Source of the DNA: a virus
IMG/VR virus record: IMGVR_UViG_3300043410_001892
Coordinates: 62,001-126,000 of that record
Length of the DNA stretch: 64,000 nt
Direction: 5' to 3' (one strand)
The stretch's first letter is position 1. Each line of letters starts with the position of its first letter. Positions 1 to 7,719 of this stretch are shown here, one piece after another. The notes beneath the pieces were generated by a model, which worked only from the letters and a program-made list of their open reading frames with translations, did not search any database and was not told the origin of the DNA. A program made the position numbers and the translations under genes.

Positions 1-1003
1 CATCTTCTCTAATAATTGCAGAAAGTCCGGGATGTTTTCTTATTGCAAGATTTCTAAAATTAGGATAATCTTTAATAATATCTCCTGGAGCTCTTAAAAT
101 ATCAATTGGATACTTTTCAATTTGAGTTTCAATTAAAACAGGTTTCTGTTCTGCAACAGTTCGTAGGTCATTAGCAGATAAATCAAAAACAGAAAAGTCA
201 TTAGCAGGTTGGTAAGAATATCTACTACTAATGCCTGAGATTAAATCGCTCAGTATTAGTGCAAGTATATACGGATGGAATTTATTCCCAGGTTTAGCAT
301 TAAAAGGACCTTTTGATTGATAAAGCAATTTATCATCTCTATTCCATTCAAATGTCAATACAGGCCAAACTGGTTTTAAACTGCGAAGACTTAGTAGATA
401 ATTTTCAGATCTTGATGCATTACCGCAGTGTCCCATAGCTTTTGATTCTAGTGGGTGCGTTGAGTGCGGTAACACCCACCAGTTATATTTTCCAACTGGC
501 AAGATTATTGAGTCACCTTCGAGAAGTTCAATATCTGGACGATTATCTAATTCTTGTTGTTTTTTATTATCAGCAATTATCTTTTGTTCTGCTGCAGTTG
601 CATTTGCTATCAATGCGTTTACTGTAGTAGTAGCAGGGCGAATAGCTTTAAGTACATTAGACATGTGTTGATTATTGCCGTAATTGCCTGCAAAGAAATG
701 TGTTAAATCTGTTTGTAGTTTATCAAATCCTTGAAACTGATATTCACCCTCGCCCCACATTTTATTAAATTCTGTTTGAAATGCTGGGTCTTGTGTTTCA
801 TTAAATCTTACAAAATTATTGTACAACAATGTAAACCATTGCAATGCTTGTTCTTTAATAAGTGTAGTTTTAGCCCATGATACTCGTGTGTCAAGTTCTT
901 GTTCACCTGAAGTACCAGGTGCACAGCTAGGTAGGTCAAGTTTCATCTTCCTAACTGTACTAGCATGATTTTCTAATAGAATTTTAAATTCATTAAATCT
1001 CAT
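1..1003 (-). CDS. PcfJ-like module protein, 3' end beyond window (partial)
   Basis: The start codon overlaps the stop of the upstream gene as ATGA, so translation is probably coupled. The reading frame is open to base 1 and the C-terminus is missing. The N-terminus (MRFNEFKILLEN) resembles the capsid-targeting peptides of T4 internal proteins. Around residues 155-230 it carries the order GHCG, then LLSLR, a proline-flanked strand ending in a glutamate, LYQSKG and a Lys-Pro-Gly-Asn. This resembles the conserved block of PcfJ-like proteins (HCxG, SLRD, T-x-E, Q-x-x-G, N). It is a paralogue of the gene just upstream, which shares the same block and the same ILEGD/LPxGK lead-in. Its biochemical role is unknown. 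The family call is from motif resemblance only. Confidence 0.55.
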   Translation of the reverse strand, partial: MRFNEFKILLENHASTVRKMKLDLPSCAPGTSGEQELDTRVSWAKTTLIKEQALQWFTLLYNNFVRFNETQDPAFQTEFNKMWGEGEYQFQGFDKLQTDLTHFFAGNYGNNQHMSNVLKAIRPATTTVNALIANATAAEQKIIADNKKQQELDNRPDIELLEGDSIILPVGKYNWWVLPHSTHPLESKAMGHCGNASRSENYLLSLRSLKPVWPVLTFEWNRDDKLLYQSKGPFNAKPGNKFHPYILALILSDLISGISSRYSYQPANDFSVFDLSANDLRTVAEQKPVLIETQIEKYPIDILRAPGDIIKDYPNFRNLAIRKHPGLSAIIRED

Positions 1004-3711
1004 TGTTGTCCCTCAAACGGATCTGGCCGCCATTGCTGTTGTTCAATGCTTTCTTTCATTTCTCTGATATAATCTTGAAATGCTTCCTCTTCAGTTGGGT
1101 GGCCAGCTATATCACGTAATTCGTTTAATTCTTCCTCACTAAACTTATCCGAGGCTACAACACCATCTATCTGATACATATGAAGTCGCAACGCGGTTGC
1201 AGCTAATTCAAACGTTTGATATCTACTTGGAATTGCAGCAAACGCTCCCCCGTTTTCGCCATTATTGCTATGTTGTATTGTTTTTAAATGTAGCTCATCA
1301 ATTTCTTCGGGAGTAAGAATCTTTGTAAAAACGTTATAATTTAGCCTGTTAATAATACAATCATTGTCAACATCATCATCATGTTCTACACCGGTAAACA
1401 ATACATGTTTTATCAAGTTACGATCAAGTAAGTGATACGGTAGCCAATCAGAAGTTATTAGGTATAATGAATTATTCGCGTCGTCTTCGGCAACAAACTC
1501 TAATGCATCAGTCCAAACGTCTCGAATTTCTTCAGTAGTAAAACTTTCGGGCGGAGTTGGGTTTTCTTCTAACTCAAGGAATTTCCAAGTGTTTCTTGTC
1601 ATCATAAGATTTATACCCTGTAATCTAAGATCCCCGTCTATTAGTTCAGGGTCGGCATACTCTAGTTGGTCTGGGTCTTTTTCAATTGCGTCTTTAGTTA
1701 TTGATTTTAGAAGCTCTATGTTAAACAATCCTTTTGGGATTTCATTTAACTTAAATGGATTATACATTTTACTAGAAAATACTGCAATCCAAGCTTTTTT
1801 TAATATTGCTTTATTTTTAAGAAGATGTTCTGGAAATTCTCTTAAATTATCTGGTTTTGCATAGCATCCCCTGACCCAAAAGTCTGCTTGGGTTTCGTCA
1901 CCATATGAATCAATATACGGGGCAATATTTACGTATTCAGGATGGTTACGTAATGTTTCATTTACAAACTCGTGTTTAAGACTGTTAGATATTAAGGCAT
2001 CTGGTAAATACCTTATTAAATTTGGGAGGCGCCTAATTGCATGTAACCATAGTCTTTCTCTTTCATTTTCGTCTTCAACTAAATCGGGTCTAAATCTTTC
2101 AATATACTCGCCTTGATTGTTACGTACTGCTTTATTTCTTATTTTATCTTTTTCTTCTTCTGGTATTGTAGCATTGACAAACGATTTGTGAACTACTAAA
2201 TGATGATTTTGATCAACTGCTGCGTTCCATAATTCAACTAAATCAGCACCGTCAAACAATCCATTAGGTAGTTTAGTTATTATGCTGCCTTCATCCCGAA
2301 TTTGGCTTTTCCATATATCTTTTTCATCATCTTCTGTGAATAAGTGTACTGGCCAGTCGGGTGTATTCAGATAAAATTTTGCAGCTTTCAACCATGCGGC
2401 TTTAACTTCTTCTCTAGTCCAACCGTCAGTGTTCATTCCTTTAATCAATTGAGGTTGTCTTGATAATGCTAGGTGTGCTAATTCTTTATAATGAGGAGCT
2501 CTATATGGCACTAGTTCAATTGCTGCTGGATTAGCGTTTTCAATTACTGACTTCATTATGTTATAGTTAGCACGTATACGATTATCACAATAACCTAAAT
2601 CACGAGGGTGAGCTATCATATATCTAGTAACTCGTTTTTCCCAATCTTGAAGTGTATTTGGAGCGTAGATAATCATCAGTGGATGTGATTTAATCGATTG
2701 TTCCCAAGTAGCTTCGTCAGTAGAAACATTTCCACTAGTATCAACTAATAAATTAATCCCTGGTAATCTCGTAATAGCAACCTTTCTATAATCTGGATCA
2801 GATCTTACCGATATAGGTGATCGTAAAAAGTCAATTGGGAATTTGTTAATTTGATCTACTATAAGCTTTGGTTTTGCTTGACTAATTTGGTTTATCAAAT
2901 CTTCTTTCATATCAAATATAGAAAAGTCACTACTAGCTTGGTATGATGTTCCGTATATACCTTCAACTATATCACTTAGTAATAATGCTAAAATTGCATA
3001 ATGAAATTTATTTGCTGGTTTAGAATTAGATCTTCCCTTCATTTGATGAAGTTCTTTCCTTTCAGGATTATATTCCATCGTAACCCAAGGCACTGGGGTT
3101 TTATCACGTAAACTTAATAATACACTTGAGCTCTGTGCAGCAGTACCACAATGCCCCATAAACTTAGATTCTGGTTCATGTGATCTAGTAGGTAATAACC
3201 ACCAATCACCTTGCTTACCAAGTGGTAATACTACATGGTCGCCTTCTAATATATCAATTGGAGTTTTATTTTTTAATTCTTCTTCATCAGCTTTTTTAAT
3301 ATCCTCTTCTACTGCTATCAAGTTTTTAACCAATGAATCAACTGTAGTAGTTTGTGCATTGATTCTTGAAAGTAATTGTATAGCGCGATTATCTCTCATA
3401 AATCTTGGAGTACCTAACCAATGATTTAACTCACTTTCAAAAACAGCAAAGTCGTCGATAGGATTTGCACCACCAAGCATACGCTCGTATACTGCTTTAG
3501 CTTTTGGATCAGTATTTTGTTTTAGCCAAGCTTCGTATAATGAAATATACCAAAGCATTGATTGATTTCTATCATTAAATACTTGTTTAGCCCAATTTAC
3601 CCGAGCGTCAATGTCTGCTACGTGGTCTGGAAGTTCAGTTTTAAGTTTGTTTAGTTTGCCATTATAATTTTCAAATAACAATAAATTTTCATATAATTCT
3701 CTTAGGAACAT
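1000..3711 (-). CDS. Large PcfJ-like module protein with helical repeats (903 aa)
   Basis: The start is supported by AGGA seven bases upstream. Residues 1-150 are helical. Residues 150-250 hold the module shared with the downstream paralogue: ILEGDHVVLPLGK, MGHCG, LLSLRD, PWVTMEYN, LHQMKGRSN and KPANKF. The remaining 650 residues look like irregular helical repeats with recurring patterns of W-x-x-A, a short proline turn and LP-x-x-L, comparable to DUF4116-like or other solenoid repeats. No enzyme motif is certain. The gene follows gp41 with a 39-base gap containing AATAAATA, one base from the late-promoter octamer. The protein could be a large virion or host-interaction protein. Function is not assigned. 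Confidence 0.6.
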   Translation of the reverse strand: MFLRELYENLLLFENYNGKLNKLKTELPDHVADIDARVNWAKQVFNDRNQSMLWYISLYEAWLKQNTDPKAKAVYERMLGGANPIDDFAVFESELNHWLGTPRFMRDNRAIQLLSRINAQTTTVDSLVKNLIAVEEDIKKADEEELKNKTPIDILEGDHVVLPLGKQGDWWLLPTRSHEPESKFMGHCGTAAQSSSVLLSLRDKTPVPWVTMEYNPERKELHQMKGRSNSKPANKFHYAILALLLSDIVEGIYGTSYQASSDFSIFDMKEDLINQISQAKPKLIVDQINKFPIDFLRSPISVRSDPDYRKVAITRLPGINLLVDTSGNVSTDEATWEQSIKSHPLMIIYAPNTLQDWEKRVTRYMIAHPRDLGYCDNRIRANYNIMKSVIENANPAAIELVPYRAPHYKELAHLALSRQPQLIKGMNTDGWTREEVKAAWLKAAKFYLNTPDWPVHLFTEDDEKDIWKSQIRDEGSIITKLPNGLFDGADLVELWNAAVDQNHHLVVHKSFVNATIPEEEKDKIRNKAVRNNQGEYIERFRPDLVEDENERERLWLHAIRRLPNLIRYLPDALISNSLKHEFVNETLRNHPEYVNIAPYIDSYGDETQADFWVRGCYAKPDNLREFPEHLLKNKAILKKAWIAVFSSKMYNPFKLNEIPKGLFNIELLKSITKDAIEKDPDQLEYADPELIDGDLRLQGINLMMTRNTWKFLELEENPTPPESFTTEEIRDVWTDALEFVAEDDANNSLYLITSDWLPYHLLDRNLIKHVLFTGVEHDDDVDNDCIINRLNYNVFTKILTPEEIDELHLKTIQHSNNGENGGAFAAIPSRYQTFELAATALRLHMYQIDGVVASDKFSEEELNELRDIAGHPTEEEAFQDYIREMKESIEQQQWRPDPFEGQQ

Positions 3712-3750: not shown

Positions 3751-5145
3751 TTAGTAGTCGTCTACGTCTAAATTATTGATCAAATCTCGCAGTGCAGAGC
3801 TTTGTATACCGGGTTTAACTTTAGCAGTTTCTTCTACTGTAGTTCTGTTTTTAATTGAATTTAATAATGCATTACCTGCTGTTGGTGCAGATGCATTACC
3901 GTACCCTTGATCTTCTTCTATGTCAGTAATTCGTAAAGTATCAATATCATAACCAAGATCAATTTTCATACCAACACCTGAGCTGCTACGTGTTTTCATA
4001 AGTTGGATTTGATATCTACCACGTTCGCGCATTGCTCTACTTGTAAAAATACCAAACACGTTATCAGCAGTTTGAATTTTACTTAACCCACCTGAGATAT
4101 GACTATGGTCAAATTCAACTTCCTCTACCGCTCCTCTATTAAGCTGTGCCGCAGTAACAAATACACAGTTCTTTTCAACTGCTAGATTTCTTAATTCCTC
4201 ACTAACATATTTGTCTTTAATGAATAAGTCAGCTGGACTAATCTTTTTAGATATTGGCATTAGCAAATCTAAATAATCTACTAATAGTACGTCAACTTTA
4301 ATGCCTGATTTAATTTCGTATTCTTTTAAATAACTTCTAATATCGTTAGCTGTTTTGCCTGACGGCATATATTTAACTTGGAATGATCCGGATTTCTTAC
4401 TAATCATTCTAACTTTAAGTTCTACATCATCAATATTTTTAAATACTTCTCTAGTTGAAATACCTGTAAGCATACTATCAATACGCATTGAAACAAGTTC
4501 TTCACTAAGTTCTAATGTTAAGTAAACTACATTCATTCCTGCTAATGCCCAGTTTACACCTAAGTTAGCTAAGAATAATGATTTACCAGCGCCCGATCCA
4601 CCTGCAAAGATATTAAGTTCTCCTCTGTTCATACCGCCAAAGAGTCTATCATCCATGTTTTTCCAACCAGTAGATACTTGTCCGTTTTTATCTTTAATCT
4701 TCATTAGCCGTTCTCTTGGATTAGCAAAATAATCAGTACCAAGATCTTTTTGTAATCCTATTTGTACAGCCTTTTTAATTTTATCTTCAACTGGGCCATA
4801 TTCACCTTTTTCAAGTAAATCAGCTGATTCATTAATAGCTCGCTCGAGGCCTTTATGTCTAATAAATGTTTCAAAGTCTGAAAGTAACCAATCGTAATGC
4901 TCTTCTTTAAGGTTATCAATTTCTTTAAGATCACCTTTTGTTGCTGCATTGATAATATCAAATGTTGGCATTACATTATGTTCGTTTACGTAGTCGTTTA
5001 TAAATTCTGCAGGTTTTTGTAATTTGCGATCAAACAAGGAATGATCAAAAATTGATTGGCATCTAACAAACGTAGCTGCATCACTTATCATCATTTCTAA
5101 ATATAATTTTTGTATATCATAACCATAGTCTACGTTTTGTTTCAT
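3751..5145 (-). CDS. 41: DnaB-like replicative DNA helicase (T4 gp41)
   Basis: 464 aa, the usual size for gp41. This hexameric 5'-3' helicase unwinds the fork and works with primase gp61. The RecA-like core begins at about residue 160 (GWKNMDDRLFGG). A Walker A loop GGSGAGKS follows near residue 182, then the LTLELSEE segment and the Walker B strand VDVLLVDYLDLL near residue 285. The AAQLNRGAVEE and HISGGLSKI segments are typical of the DnaB family. The N-terminal 120 residues are helical and include QSIFDHSLFD. AGGATATTA precedes the ATG. A perfect intergenic stem-loop separates it from the upstream DUF2490 gene. Primase is the next gene but one upstream, so the replisome pair is nearly contiguous. 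Confidence 0.95.
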   Translation of the reverse strand: MKQNVDYGYDIQKLYLEMMISDAATFVRCQSIFDHSLFDRKLQKPAEFINDYVNEHNVMPTFDIINAATKGDLKEIDNLKEEHYDWLLSDFETFIRHKGLERAINESADLLEKGEYGPVEDKIKKAVQIGLQKDLGTDYFANPRERLMKIKDKNGQVSTGWKNMDDRLFGGMNRGELNIFAGGSGAGKSLFLANLGVNWALAGMNVVYLTLELSEELVSMRIDSMLTGISTREVFKNIDDVELKVRMISKKSGSFQVKYMPSGKTANDIRSYLKEYEIKSGIKVDVLLVDYLDLLMPISKKISPADLFIKDKYVSEELRNLAVEKNCVFVTAAQLNRGAVEEVEFDHSHISGGLSKIQTADNVFGIFTSRAMRERGRYQIQLMKTRSSSGVGMKIDLGYDIDTLRITDIEEDQGYGNASAPTAGNALLNSIKNRTTVEETAKVKPGIQSSALRDLINNLDVDDY

Positions 5146-5166
5146 TTAATATCCTGTTGAAAGAGT

Positions 5167-5194
5167 AGTACGTTATGCACCTACATAACGTACT
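5167..5194 (-). other. Perfect intergenic stem-loop without U-tail
   Basis: An 11-base-pair stem (AGTACGTTATG with CATAACGTACT) and a 6-base loop lie between the DUF2490 stop and the gp41 start. No U-run follows, so it is not a typical terminator. It may stabilise or process the operon mRNA. Confidence 0.6.
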
Positions 5195-5204
5195 CGTACA
5201 TCAA

Positions 5205-5903
5205 TTACTTAAACACGTCGCCGTATAGTGATACACTTAAGATATGCGCCATTCGATCGTAATTATTTTCACGATTCATATATTGATTTAAATAACCAAT
5301 TTCAGTTCTGTAGTTATCGTTAAATTTATAACCAACTCCAACAAACCCTCTATTTTGATCAAAACCAGATACTGGACCCCAGTTAGTTTTATTAACATTA
5401 GCAAAGAATTCTTCTGATGCAATCAGTGACCATTTTTTGTTAAGGTTATGTGTTAGTTTAGCTTGTTCACGGAATCTAACACTAGTATCGTCACTAATAT
5501 CTACAGTACGTTCTTCTAAGCGTGATCTAAAGGTTAGCGTATCAGAGTTATCAAAGTTATATCTATATTCATGTTGTTGCCAAGCACGTTGTTCATCTAG
5601 TGGTTTTTTAGCGTATGGCGGTTCACCGTACTGATATGCATAACCAAAGATTACTTTATTGTTATCTGTAAGTTGATAGCCTAACCCAATCCGCCCAACT
5701 AAGCCGTGAATATCAAATCCAGGATCATGAATTGATTTAGGGTTATCTGTTGCACGAGCAGAACCTTCTGCATAATACAATGCTTTTGAATTAGCAATGT
5801 TACCAGAAAGTACAACTGTCCCCCATGTTCCAAATAATTCTTCAGTACTAGCAGTTGCTACTACTGGTAATAATAATGTCAATAATAATAAAAGTTTTTT
5901 CAT
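5205..5903 (-). CDS. Secreted outer-membrane beta-barrel protein, DUF2490-like
   Basis: 232 aa with a clear Sec signal peptide: MKK, a run of leucines, then VVATAS with cleavage near residue 19. The mature part shows alternating amphipathic strands and the pattern of DUF2490 barrels: LTFRSRLEERT, FREQAKLTHNL, a central EEFFANVNKTNW, then QNRGFVGVGYKF and RTEIGYLNQYMNRE. This family is normally bacterial and of unknown function. The gene sits between primase and helicase. Its ATG overlaps the primase stop (ATGA), and it lies downstream of a consensus sigma70 promoter, so early expression is inferred. It is probably cargo acquired from a host, perhaps altering the cell surface against superinfection. 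The family call is by pattern and not searched. Confidence 0.75.
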   Translation of the reverse strand: MKKLLLLLTLLLPVVATASTEELFGTWGTVVLSGNIANSKALYYAEGSARATDNPKSIHDPGFDIHGLVGRIGLGYQLTDNNKVIFGYAYQYGEPPYAKKPLDEQRAWQQHEYRYNFDNSDTLTFRSRLEERTVDISDDTSVRFREQAKLTHNLNKKWSLIASEEFFANVNKTNWGPVSGFDQNRGFVGVGYKFNDNYRTEIGYLNQYMNRENNYDRMAHILSVSLYGDVFK

Positions 5904-6883
5904 AAATCTACCTCTTTAAAAAAATTCTTAGCTCTTAATTGAATTTTAAGAGCATAGCTTTGCCGTGATTCAATGATTAGCCATAGTGTAGCCAATCGTC
6001 CAAGTTTAGTAACAGCATCGTTTACGTCTTTTATGCCTTCGGGCCATTCTGGCATACTTACTGACCATCCGTAATCGATTGCTTGTTCTACAGTTTTAAT
6101 GCCTTCGTGATCTCTATCCGGAACTAATATAATTTCTTTATAAAATCTTTTTAGTAACCAATTTTGTTTATCGTTTATTTCGCAACCTAATATTGCACAG
6201 CCATCAATGCTAATTGCATCAAGTGTACCTTCGCATACTATAATAAATTTTCGATCATGTGTTTGTCGATCAAGATTAAAAACAAACCCAGGTTGTTGTT
6301 CTGATAAGTATCGTGGTCCATGATTAGGGTCAACACTTCTTGCTGTGTACCCAACTAAACGATTTTCATAGTAATATGGTATAATCAATCTTTTATTATA
6401 TTTGACATGTGAACTCCAATGAAATGGATAATCATCCAAATATAAATTTCGACTGTTCATATATTCCAATACTGGAATAAGTTTATCTGGTATATTGTTT
6501 AAGTAAGTTGTAATAGGTTTTGCGTTGTATGGCAAAGTCTTTGTTTCAAAAGACGGAATTAACGTTTCTATTTGTAGAAGTTCTGAGGCTTCTACTCTAA
6601 ATGCTTCACGTGTTAGTTTAGAAATTTCACTATCGCTTATATTAAGAAAGCGCATAAAATCTTTTACTCTTTTGCTTATATGCCGACCTGGTTGCCAACT
6701 TGCTTTAAACCCACAATTAAAGCAATGGTAAGATAAACCTCCATCATTGTTAGTAATAAAGCCACCACGACTTCTTGTATCCTGGCAACAAGGTGCGTTG
6801 CCAGTGATCCATCCGCTTGGTGTTTTTTTAGTTCGCCTACCAGTTTGCCAGTATACAAGTAATGTATCTGTAATTAAGTTCAT
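5900..6883 (-). CDS. 61: DNA primase (T4 gp61)
   Basis: 327 aa, close to T4 gp61 (342 aa). It makes RNA primers for lagging-strand synthesis with gp41. A zinc-binding N-terminus is seen at residues 30-60: CCQDT, then HCFNCGF. A TOPRIM fold follows at residues 210-290: IIVCEGTLDAIS with the catalytic glutamate, then the acidic LVPDRDHEG strand and DVNDAV. No strong Shine-Dalgarno sequence is seen before the ATG. A TTGACA-17-TATAAT promoter ends 27 bases upstream of the start. The stop overlaps the DUF2490 start by four bases, which ties the two genes in one operon with gp41. Confidence 0.9.
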   Translation of the reverse strand: MNLITDTLLVYWQTGRRTKKTPSGWITGNAPCCQDTRSRGGFITNNDGGLSYHCFNCGFKASWQPGRHISKRVKDFMRFLNISDSEISKLTREAFRVEASELLQIETLIPSFETKTLPYNAKPITTYLNNIPDKLIPVLEYMNSRNLYLDDYPFHWSSHVKYNKRLIIPYYYENRLVGYTARSVDPNHGPRYLSEQQPGFVFNLDRQTHDRKFIIVCEGTLDAISIDGCAILGCEINDKQNWLLKRFYKEIILVPDRDHEGIKTVEQAIDYGWSVSMPEWPEGIKDVNDAVTKLGRLATLWLIIESRQSYALKIQLRAKNFFKEVDL

Positions 6884-6909: not shown

Positions 6910-6938
6910 ATTATACTATAACACAGTAACGCTGTCAA
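6910..6938 (-). promoter_or_regulatory. Consensus sigma70 promoter for primase operon
   Basis: On the minus strand TTGACA (6933-6938) is followed by 17 bases and then TATAAT (6910-6915), both exact matches to the E. coli sigma70 consensus. The ATG of gp61 is 27 bases downstream. Part of it lies within the 3' end of the preceding gene. It is expected to be read early by host RNA polymerase and to express gp61, the DUF2490 protein and gp41. Confidence 0.8.
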
Positions 6939-7719
6939 CCGTTCCGGTAGGGTTGACAGGATTGTTACCTTGATATAGTACTCTAAAATATTTAAAATCT
7001 GCGATGTTAATGTCGTTGAATGTTACGATTACTGTAGTAGCTGTTGGTAAAATACGTTCAGCTAATTTTGTTGCATGTAAGAATGAATTCACACTAATAG
7101 TTGAATTAGTTGTAGCTTCAAGCCATATTTTTCCAATAAAGCCTGTAACTGCAATAGAAAAAGATAAGCGTGTAGTAGGGATTGCTTCATAATAGGTTGC
7201 AGGTATAGCACTTGTGTGATATACAACATTGCCCATAAAATCAATTTCACCTGTAAATGTTTTATAAATTTTTTCATCACGGAATGTTGGCATGGCACTA
7301 CCGATGAGATCCATAGTCCCTACTGCTCCAAATTTAGTGTCAGCATATAGCAACACATCTTTTCCATCTTTAATTGCTGAAACGCTAAACTTTAAAAATT
7401 GAGGAGTTAAATCAGTAAGATCTTCTTGTGGTATAGTTACTACTGCAATTCCTTTCTTTTCAGTTAGTTCGAGACGATATGGGCTATTAGGCAATGCGGT
7501 ACCTGATGCATCCATGATGTTTAATTCAATAAAGGTTAGTGTAGTCAAATCGATTCTTTTTTGATCTGCATTCTTAATTTCGAATTCAATGGTATTATCA
7601 ATACCATTATATAATTTTACGTTTCTTTGATACACTGATGAAAACTCCACTGTAAATCCGGCCAGATCGATTAGAAGTAAGACTCGGTTTGGGTATAAAT
7701 AACTTGATATTTTTTGCAT
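6916..7719 (-). CDS. Putative virion structural protein, BppU-like N-terminus
   Basis: 267 aa from the ATG at 7719, which has AAGGAT eight bases upstream. An in-frame TTG six bases earlier is less likely. The N-terminal 130 residues are beta-rich, and the phrase IEFEIKNADQKRIDL resembles the Ig-like N-terminal domain of baseplate upper proteins (BppU type). The C-terminal part (GFIGKIWLEATTNSTI and FKYFRVLYQGN) resembles a jelly-roll-like domain common in cyanophage structural proteins. It is transcribed divergently from the next gene, and a CATAAATA late-promoter octamer lies 18 bases upstream. Its stop lies within the spacer of the primase promoter. The virion role is an inference. Confidence 0.5.
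   Translation of the reverse strand: MQKISSYLYPNRVLLLIDLAGFTVEFSSVYQRNVKLYNGIDNTIEFEIKNADQKRIDLTTLTFIELNIMDASGTALPNSPYRLELTEKKGIAVVTIPQEDLTDLTPQFLKFSVSAIKDGKDVLLYADTKFGAVGTMDLIGSAMPTFRDEKIYKTFTGEIDFMGNVVYHTSAIPATYYEAIPTTRLSFSIAVTGFIGKIWLEATTNSTISVNSFLHATKLAERILPTATTVIVTFNDINIADFKYFRVLYQGNNPVNPTGTVDSVTVL
7694..7701 (+). promoter_or_regulatory. Late promoter octamer TATAAATA (plus)
   Basis: An exact T4 late consensus on the plus strand, 41 bases before the ATG at 7743. It lies within the opposite gene's first codons, so a chance match is possible. If real, the conserved 125-aa gene is late. Confidence 0.5.

Follow-up and report, generated by a model that had tools for sequence, protein, structure and literature searches.

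A jumbo phage related to PA5oct and Atu_ph07 carries, between the primase and helicase genes of its replication operon, a gene for a predicted outer-membrane beta-barrel of the DUF2490 family. The gene lies at positions 5205-5903 (minus strand) of the window, i.e., the 64,000-nt stretch of DNA analyzed here, which belongs to a 372,173-bp virus record (G000). In our preferred reading, to which we give a probability of about 0.4, the product would be an early-made, arginine-lined, anion-permeable outer-membrane channel that remodels host uptake during replication.

The gene encodes 232 amino acids (start ATG at 5903, stop at 5205-5207), and its placement between primase and helicase was as the first-pass annotation had described. 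That annotation's call of a DUF2490-like protein was also sustained, with a signal-peptide-like start. Our Pfam search returned PF10677 (DUF2490) with E = 1.2e-43 and 149.4 bits (149.6 bits in a genome-wide rescore), exceeding the gathering cut-off of 29.8 bits. The match was full-length, starting at barrel residue 24 and spanning profile positions 1-184 of 186, and the barrel relation that the annotation had left to a database search was thereby found. Residues 1-19 (MKKLLLLLTLLLPVVATAS; 5847-5903, minus strand) resemble a signal peptide by inspection. All twelve columns that were invariant in an alignment of 15 members are kept in the phage protein (W27, R50, G87, Q109, R126, R128, E130, R145, E165, R185, G189, and Y204), and the same alignment placed about seven additional residues ahead of H66 relative to the bacterial members. 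The frame is intact and the gene is real, with a GC content of 0.346 against 0.350 for the window. An assembly chimera was rejected, as the genes are arranged identically in another IMG/VR contig (L001), with 99.94% nucleotide identity over 13.9 kb and across the junction.

We infer a barrel fold from the sequences of the family as a whole; the beta-type amphipathic alternation of 56 members was such that only 2 of 1000 column shuffles scored as high. An AlphaFold model built from a 2-row alignment had a mean pLDDT of 37 and is uninformative on the fold, and no solved homologue of the barrel was found in the PDB. By residue parity, R126, R128, E130, and R132 would lie on one face of a strand, and R143, R145, Q147, and K149 on one face of the next, several of these residues being invariant. 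With R126, R128, R132, R143, R145, and K149 on one face of alternating strands, the lumen would probably be positively charged and anion-permeable. A C-terminal aromatic residue, the beta-signal read by BAM, is usual in outer-membrane barrels but not universal, and 42 of 52 bacterial members of the family end in F. This residue is absent from both phage copies known to us, the window protein ending in GDVFK (F penultimate) and that of a second phage contig, L122, in GDYI (Y penultimate). Because the terminal aromatic residue has been lost in both proteins, the last strand of the phage barrels differs, and BAM may fold them less efficiently or recognize a shifted signal.

Upstream of the barrel is a DNA primase of the Toprim type (5900-6883, minus strand, 327 aa; Pfam, and phrog_47 at E = 6e-44). 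The ATGA overlap noted previously between the two genes was confirmed, the primase TGA at 5902-5900 sharing bases with the barrel ATG. A DnaB-like replicative helicase (3751-5145, minus strand, 464 aa; Pfam, and phrog_19 at E = 6e-69) starts 59 nt downstream of the barrel. The sigma70-type promoter of this region (TTGACA-N17-TATAAT; 6910-6938, minus strand) stands 26 nt ahead of the primase start and is the sole 12/12 match in the window; about 25 perfect sites of this form occur across the 372-kb record. The barrel had previously been placed behind this consensus promoter, and a perfect site is indeed present upstream, but it drives the primase first. Because relatives without the barrel retain the promoter, slightly altered, we assign it to the primase and replication operon and not to the barrel as its own. 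A 14-nt imperfect palindrome (86%) at window positions 6932-6959 overlaps the -35 box and lies where the coding sequence of the upstream gene ends; it may be a chance occurrence or an operator.

On the other side of the gene, the barrel-helicase spacer (5146-5204, minus strand) carries AGGATATTAAATG ahead of the helicase start, as do the relatives L008 and L011, and this shared ribosome-binding region of the helicase fixes the downstream edge of the cargo. Between the barrel stop and the helicase start is an 11-bp perfect inverted repeat with a 6-nt loop (5167-5194, minus strand), a hairpin (z -3.2) that is unique in the window and has no T run after it. It was found neither at the junctions of relatives without the barrel nor in L122, and is lineage-specific. 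One arm-like copy occurs elsewhere in the record (L116:14585).

The window helicase is nearest to those of Pseudomonas phage PA5oct (57%), Agrobacterium phage Atu_ph07 (51%), and Sinorhizobium phage Phosso (48%), and on these similarities the source is a PA5oct/Atu_ph07-like jumbo phage, outside the close relatives of T4. Primase and helicase are directly adjacent in these three phages, and the barrel was not found in their records. Of the 80 IMG/VR relatives with the most similar helicases (L007-L086), both genes were on the contig in 78; one of these had an unclear 203-nt gap, leaving 77 that could be scored, none of which (0/77) had the barrel at this site. The first-pass annotation's statement that T4-like phages normally have no such gene here is supported as an absence from these relatives, although "T4-like" was inexact for a phage with these neighbors. 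With the same count, the possibility that the barrel is a conserved core gene of the locus, present in all relatives, was rejected.

The occupants of the junction varied among these relatives. No gene was present in 14 of the 77. The other 63 had a gene of the carbamoyltransferase family (PF02543, in some together with PF16861), preceded in 57 cases by a small ORF of about 37-44 aa ending in RDPFIYK; a few relatives had extra cargo, including a 2OG-Fe(II) oxygenase and an FkbM methyltransferase. In many relatives the carbamoyltransferase is a short form with the N-terminal domain only. Within the window's own fully supported helicase subclade (n = 6), four junctions were empty, one held the carbamoyltransferase, and one the barrel. 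Given such varied occupants, the primase-helicase junction is a recurrent cargo slot, general in use and not singled out by the barrel, which is the different item of this lineage. Neither the carbamoyltransferase, by tblastn, in the rest of the 372-kb record nor the small RDPFIYK ORF elsewhere in this phage was found, and relocation of the carbamoyltransferase cassette within the phage was rejected on the tblastn result. Movement of the barrel to another place in the relatives was likewise rejected; PF10677 was found only in L001 and L122 among 50 related-phage records, most of which are fragments. The first 15 nt of the barrel (ATGAAAAAACTTTTA) match the small ORF of L008, which suggests that an exchange took place at the start codon; proteins beginning with MKKLL are common, however, and this match is not relied on.

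The barrel had no PHROG match at E <= 1, and no match was obtained among 50,697 GenBank phages (INPHARED), whether the phage protein or a bacterial member served as query. In IMG/VR, four alignment-based scans recovered only L001/L123, the window phage in another contig, and L122; such scans work with short motifs and overlook divergent DUF2490 members. The barrel of L122 is 66% identical to that of the window, and the gene order on this contig is T4-type primase, thyX, mazG, barrel, SPFH lipoprotein, nrdB, and nrdA. Its primase is nearest to that of the Methylophilales phage Melnitz (43%), and almost nothing in L122 matches the jumbo phage besides the barrel and the SPFH lipoprotein (53% identical). 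On its gene content, L122 is a T4-like phage contig unrelated to the window's jumbo phage, and the Melnitz affinity, together with the abundance of DUF2490 in a bacterial family that is probably Methylophilaceae, hints at a methylotroph as its host. Judged from dN of 0.26 against dS of 1.44 (dN/dS about 0.18), the two phage barrels have diverged under purifying selection.

The window protein resembles DUF2490/PF10677 of Pseudomonadota and Bacteroidota in its full-length match, invariant residues, signal-peptide-like start, and size. It differs from the bacterial proteins in being phage-borne and in its extra residues and missing C-terminal aromatic residue, and sampled bacterial homologues reach only about 41% identity to the phage barrel. 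In a tree of 53 barrels, the phage pair formed a clade of its own (100/99 support), separate from all the bacterial groups sampled and on a long stem (1.14 changes per site). The phylogeny that had been proposed as a way to find the donor lineage thus left the pair unplaced, with no donor resolved or nameable. One small-genome bacterial family rich in DUF2490 is probably Methylophilaceae, since TIGR03128, the key enzyme of the RuMP pathway, scored over the cut-off in all seven of the seven members tested. The phage pair is not nested within this Methylophilaceae-like family. A Mitsuaria match of L002 (29% over 96 aa) was not confirmed.

DUF2490 is listed in TCDB as putative porin family 1.B.81, with function not established (PMC4827864). 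At three bacterial loci by Pfam, and three more by clustering, a phosphate-selective porin (PF07396) lies upstream on the same strand, and a BBP2 porin was found downstream of bacterial DUF2490 genes. On two sphingomonad plasmids DUF2490 stands third in a chrB-chrA chromate operon; in Legionella it follows a TauE/SafE exporter (sulfite exporter), and in Blastomonas it is near thiosulfate genes. Bacterial neighborhoods vary, and many loci are without porin or oxyanion genes; no phosphate-selective porin was found in this phage itself. The surroundings with a phosphate-selective porin, chromate efflux genes, or a sulfite exporter point to an oxyanion channel at least as well as to exclusion or masking.

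As a channel, the product would be exported by its signal peptide early in infection, and the host's BAM machinery would fold it into the outer membrane as a small beta-barrel. There it would alter outer-membrane permeability or uptake, our best guess being uptake of oxyanions such as phosphate, during replication of the 372-kb genome. Marine phages carry phosphate-acquisition genes, and the role of the barrel may be likened to theirs. In support we count that two unrelated phages hold the barrel among replication or dNTP-synthesis genes; against it, a lytic phage would profit from extra uptake only if the infection is long.

Superinfection exclusion or receptor masking, which the first-pass annotation had suggested, is the main rival and only somewhat less probable than the channel. 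An early outer-membrane barrel would then block, displace, or dilute the receptor for the same or competing phages. Such a role would suit a gene in an operon of early type with a consensus promoter ahead of it, and the patchy occurrence in two unrelated phages is in keeping with conflict between phages. Inactivating the receptor is one of the main exclusion routes known, as for Cor of phi80 and N15, which acts by inactivating FhuA (PMC11436027), and the authors of the Melnitz study proposed a surface role of this kind for an S-layer-like protein of a phage (PMC9004378). However, Cor and other known exclusion proteins lie outside DUF2490, and the bacterial family often adjoins porins and anion exporters, not surface antigens. 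Llp of T5 offers a further exclusion comparison. Cor and Llp may share an outer-membrane site of action with the barrel, but no sequence relation of either to it was found.

We consider it unlikely that the barrel serves in envelope remodeling or as a lysis aid, acting late or for lysis timing together with the phage's SPFH lipoprotein and curli module. The phage does encode both. Its SPFH/Band 7 lipoprotein (phrog_200; L113:8712-9563, minus strand) has the counterpart noted above in L122 (L122:5350-6195), where the gene is close downstream of the barrel. The curli-like module (L116:13195-16981, about 279.2-283.0 kb of G000, minus strand) comprises a CsgF-like protein (PF10614, E = 7e-7), CsgG (PF03783, E = 2e-48), a FecR-domain protein, and two proteins with curlin-like repeats (PF07012), of which one exceeds the cut-off and the other falls below it. 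The presence of a secretion pore and amyloid-like subunits within one phage is striking in itself. A lysis role has been suggested for phage CsgG by the Melnitz authors (PMC9004378). Against such a joint action, the window barrel belongs to the replication operon and to no late or lysis cluster, the genes for SPFH and curli are distant (at about 215 kb and 279-283 kb in the record), and the lipoproteins of phrog_200 form a phage family that is established in its own right.

Neutral cargo, or a recent passenger kept in the slot by chance, is an improbable description of the gene. Such cargo might be expected where the slot takes items as varied as the carbamoyltransferase, oxygenase, and methyltransferase and where all sampled near relatives are without the barrel, but the intact frame, the retained family-invariant residues, the low dN/dS between the two phages, the GC content close to that of the window, and the maintenance of the gene in two unrelated phages argue otherwise. 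That the product is no barrel but a soluble or periplasmic DUF2490 protein is very improbable, for although the low pLDDT and the lost C-terminal aromatic residue would allow it, the signal-peptide-like start, the family-wide amphipathic strands, the terminal F of the bacterial members counted above, and the putative-porin assignment in TCDB speak against it.

Outer-membrane cargo in phages is already known. Temperate coliphages encode outer-membrane proteins such as Lom of lambda and the Lc porin of PA-2, which are likewise outer-membrane barrels carried as cargo; the protein described here differs from them in having no Ail_Lom or Gram-negative porin Pfam match, in belonging to a lytic-type jumbo phage, and in its replication-operon location. 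Among lytic aquatic phages, the closest earlier case of an outer-membrane pore is CsgG/CsgF of Melnitz and the pelagimyophages, which is of bacterial type (PMC9004378). The window phage has CsgG and CsgF as well, but the barrel is from a different protein family and the curli genes are elsewhere in the record. The novelty would lie in the family, DUF2490, which did not turn up in the collections of named phages covered here.

Few phage genes are known to act in the outer membrane of infected cells, and most of these come from temperate phages. A barrel present in two unrelated phages under purifying selection provides a testable case of host uptake or surface being altered in lytic growth, and suggests that some phages rebuild the outer surface or uptake of the infected cell early in infection. 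It also offers a handle on the TCDB porin family, and the primase-helicase junction of jumbo phages is a cargo slot worth mining. A wider proposal, which we regard as rather unlikely, is that a gene set for remodeling the outer surface (the DUF2490 barrel, the SPFH lipoprotein, and a curli secretion pore accompanied by amyloid-like subunits of its own) is carried by lytic aquatic phages and exchanged among them, and would rebuild the infected cell's outer membrane during replication, the barrel being a mobile member passed between unrelated lineages.

Other features of the phage include a 903-aa protein downstream of the helicase (window 1000-3711, minus strand), with a DUF4116 match at E = 3e-7 and no PHROG. 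A tmRNA carrying the ARAGORN asterisk flag (possibly permuted) and an unusual tag peptide is located at L116:7620-8041 (minus strand), and a cluster of 11 tRNA genes at L115:12894-18290.
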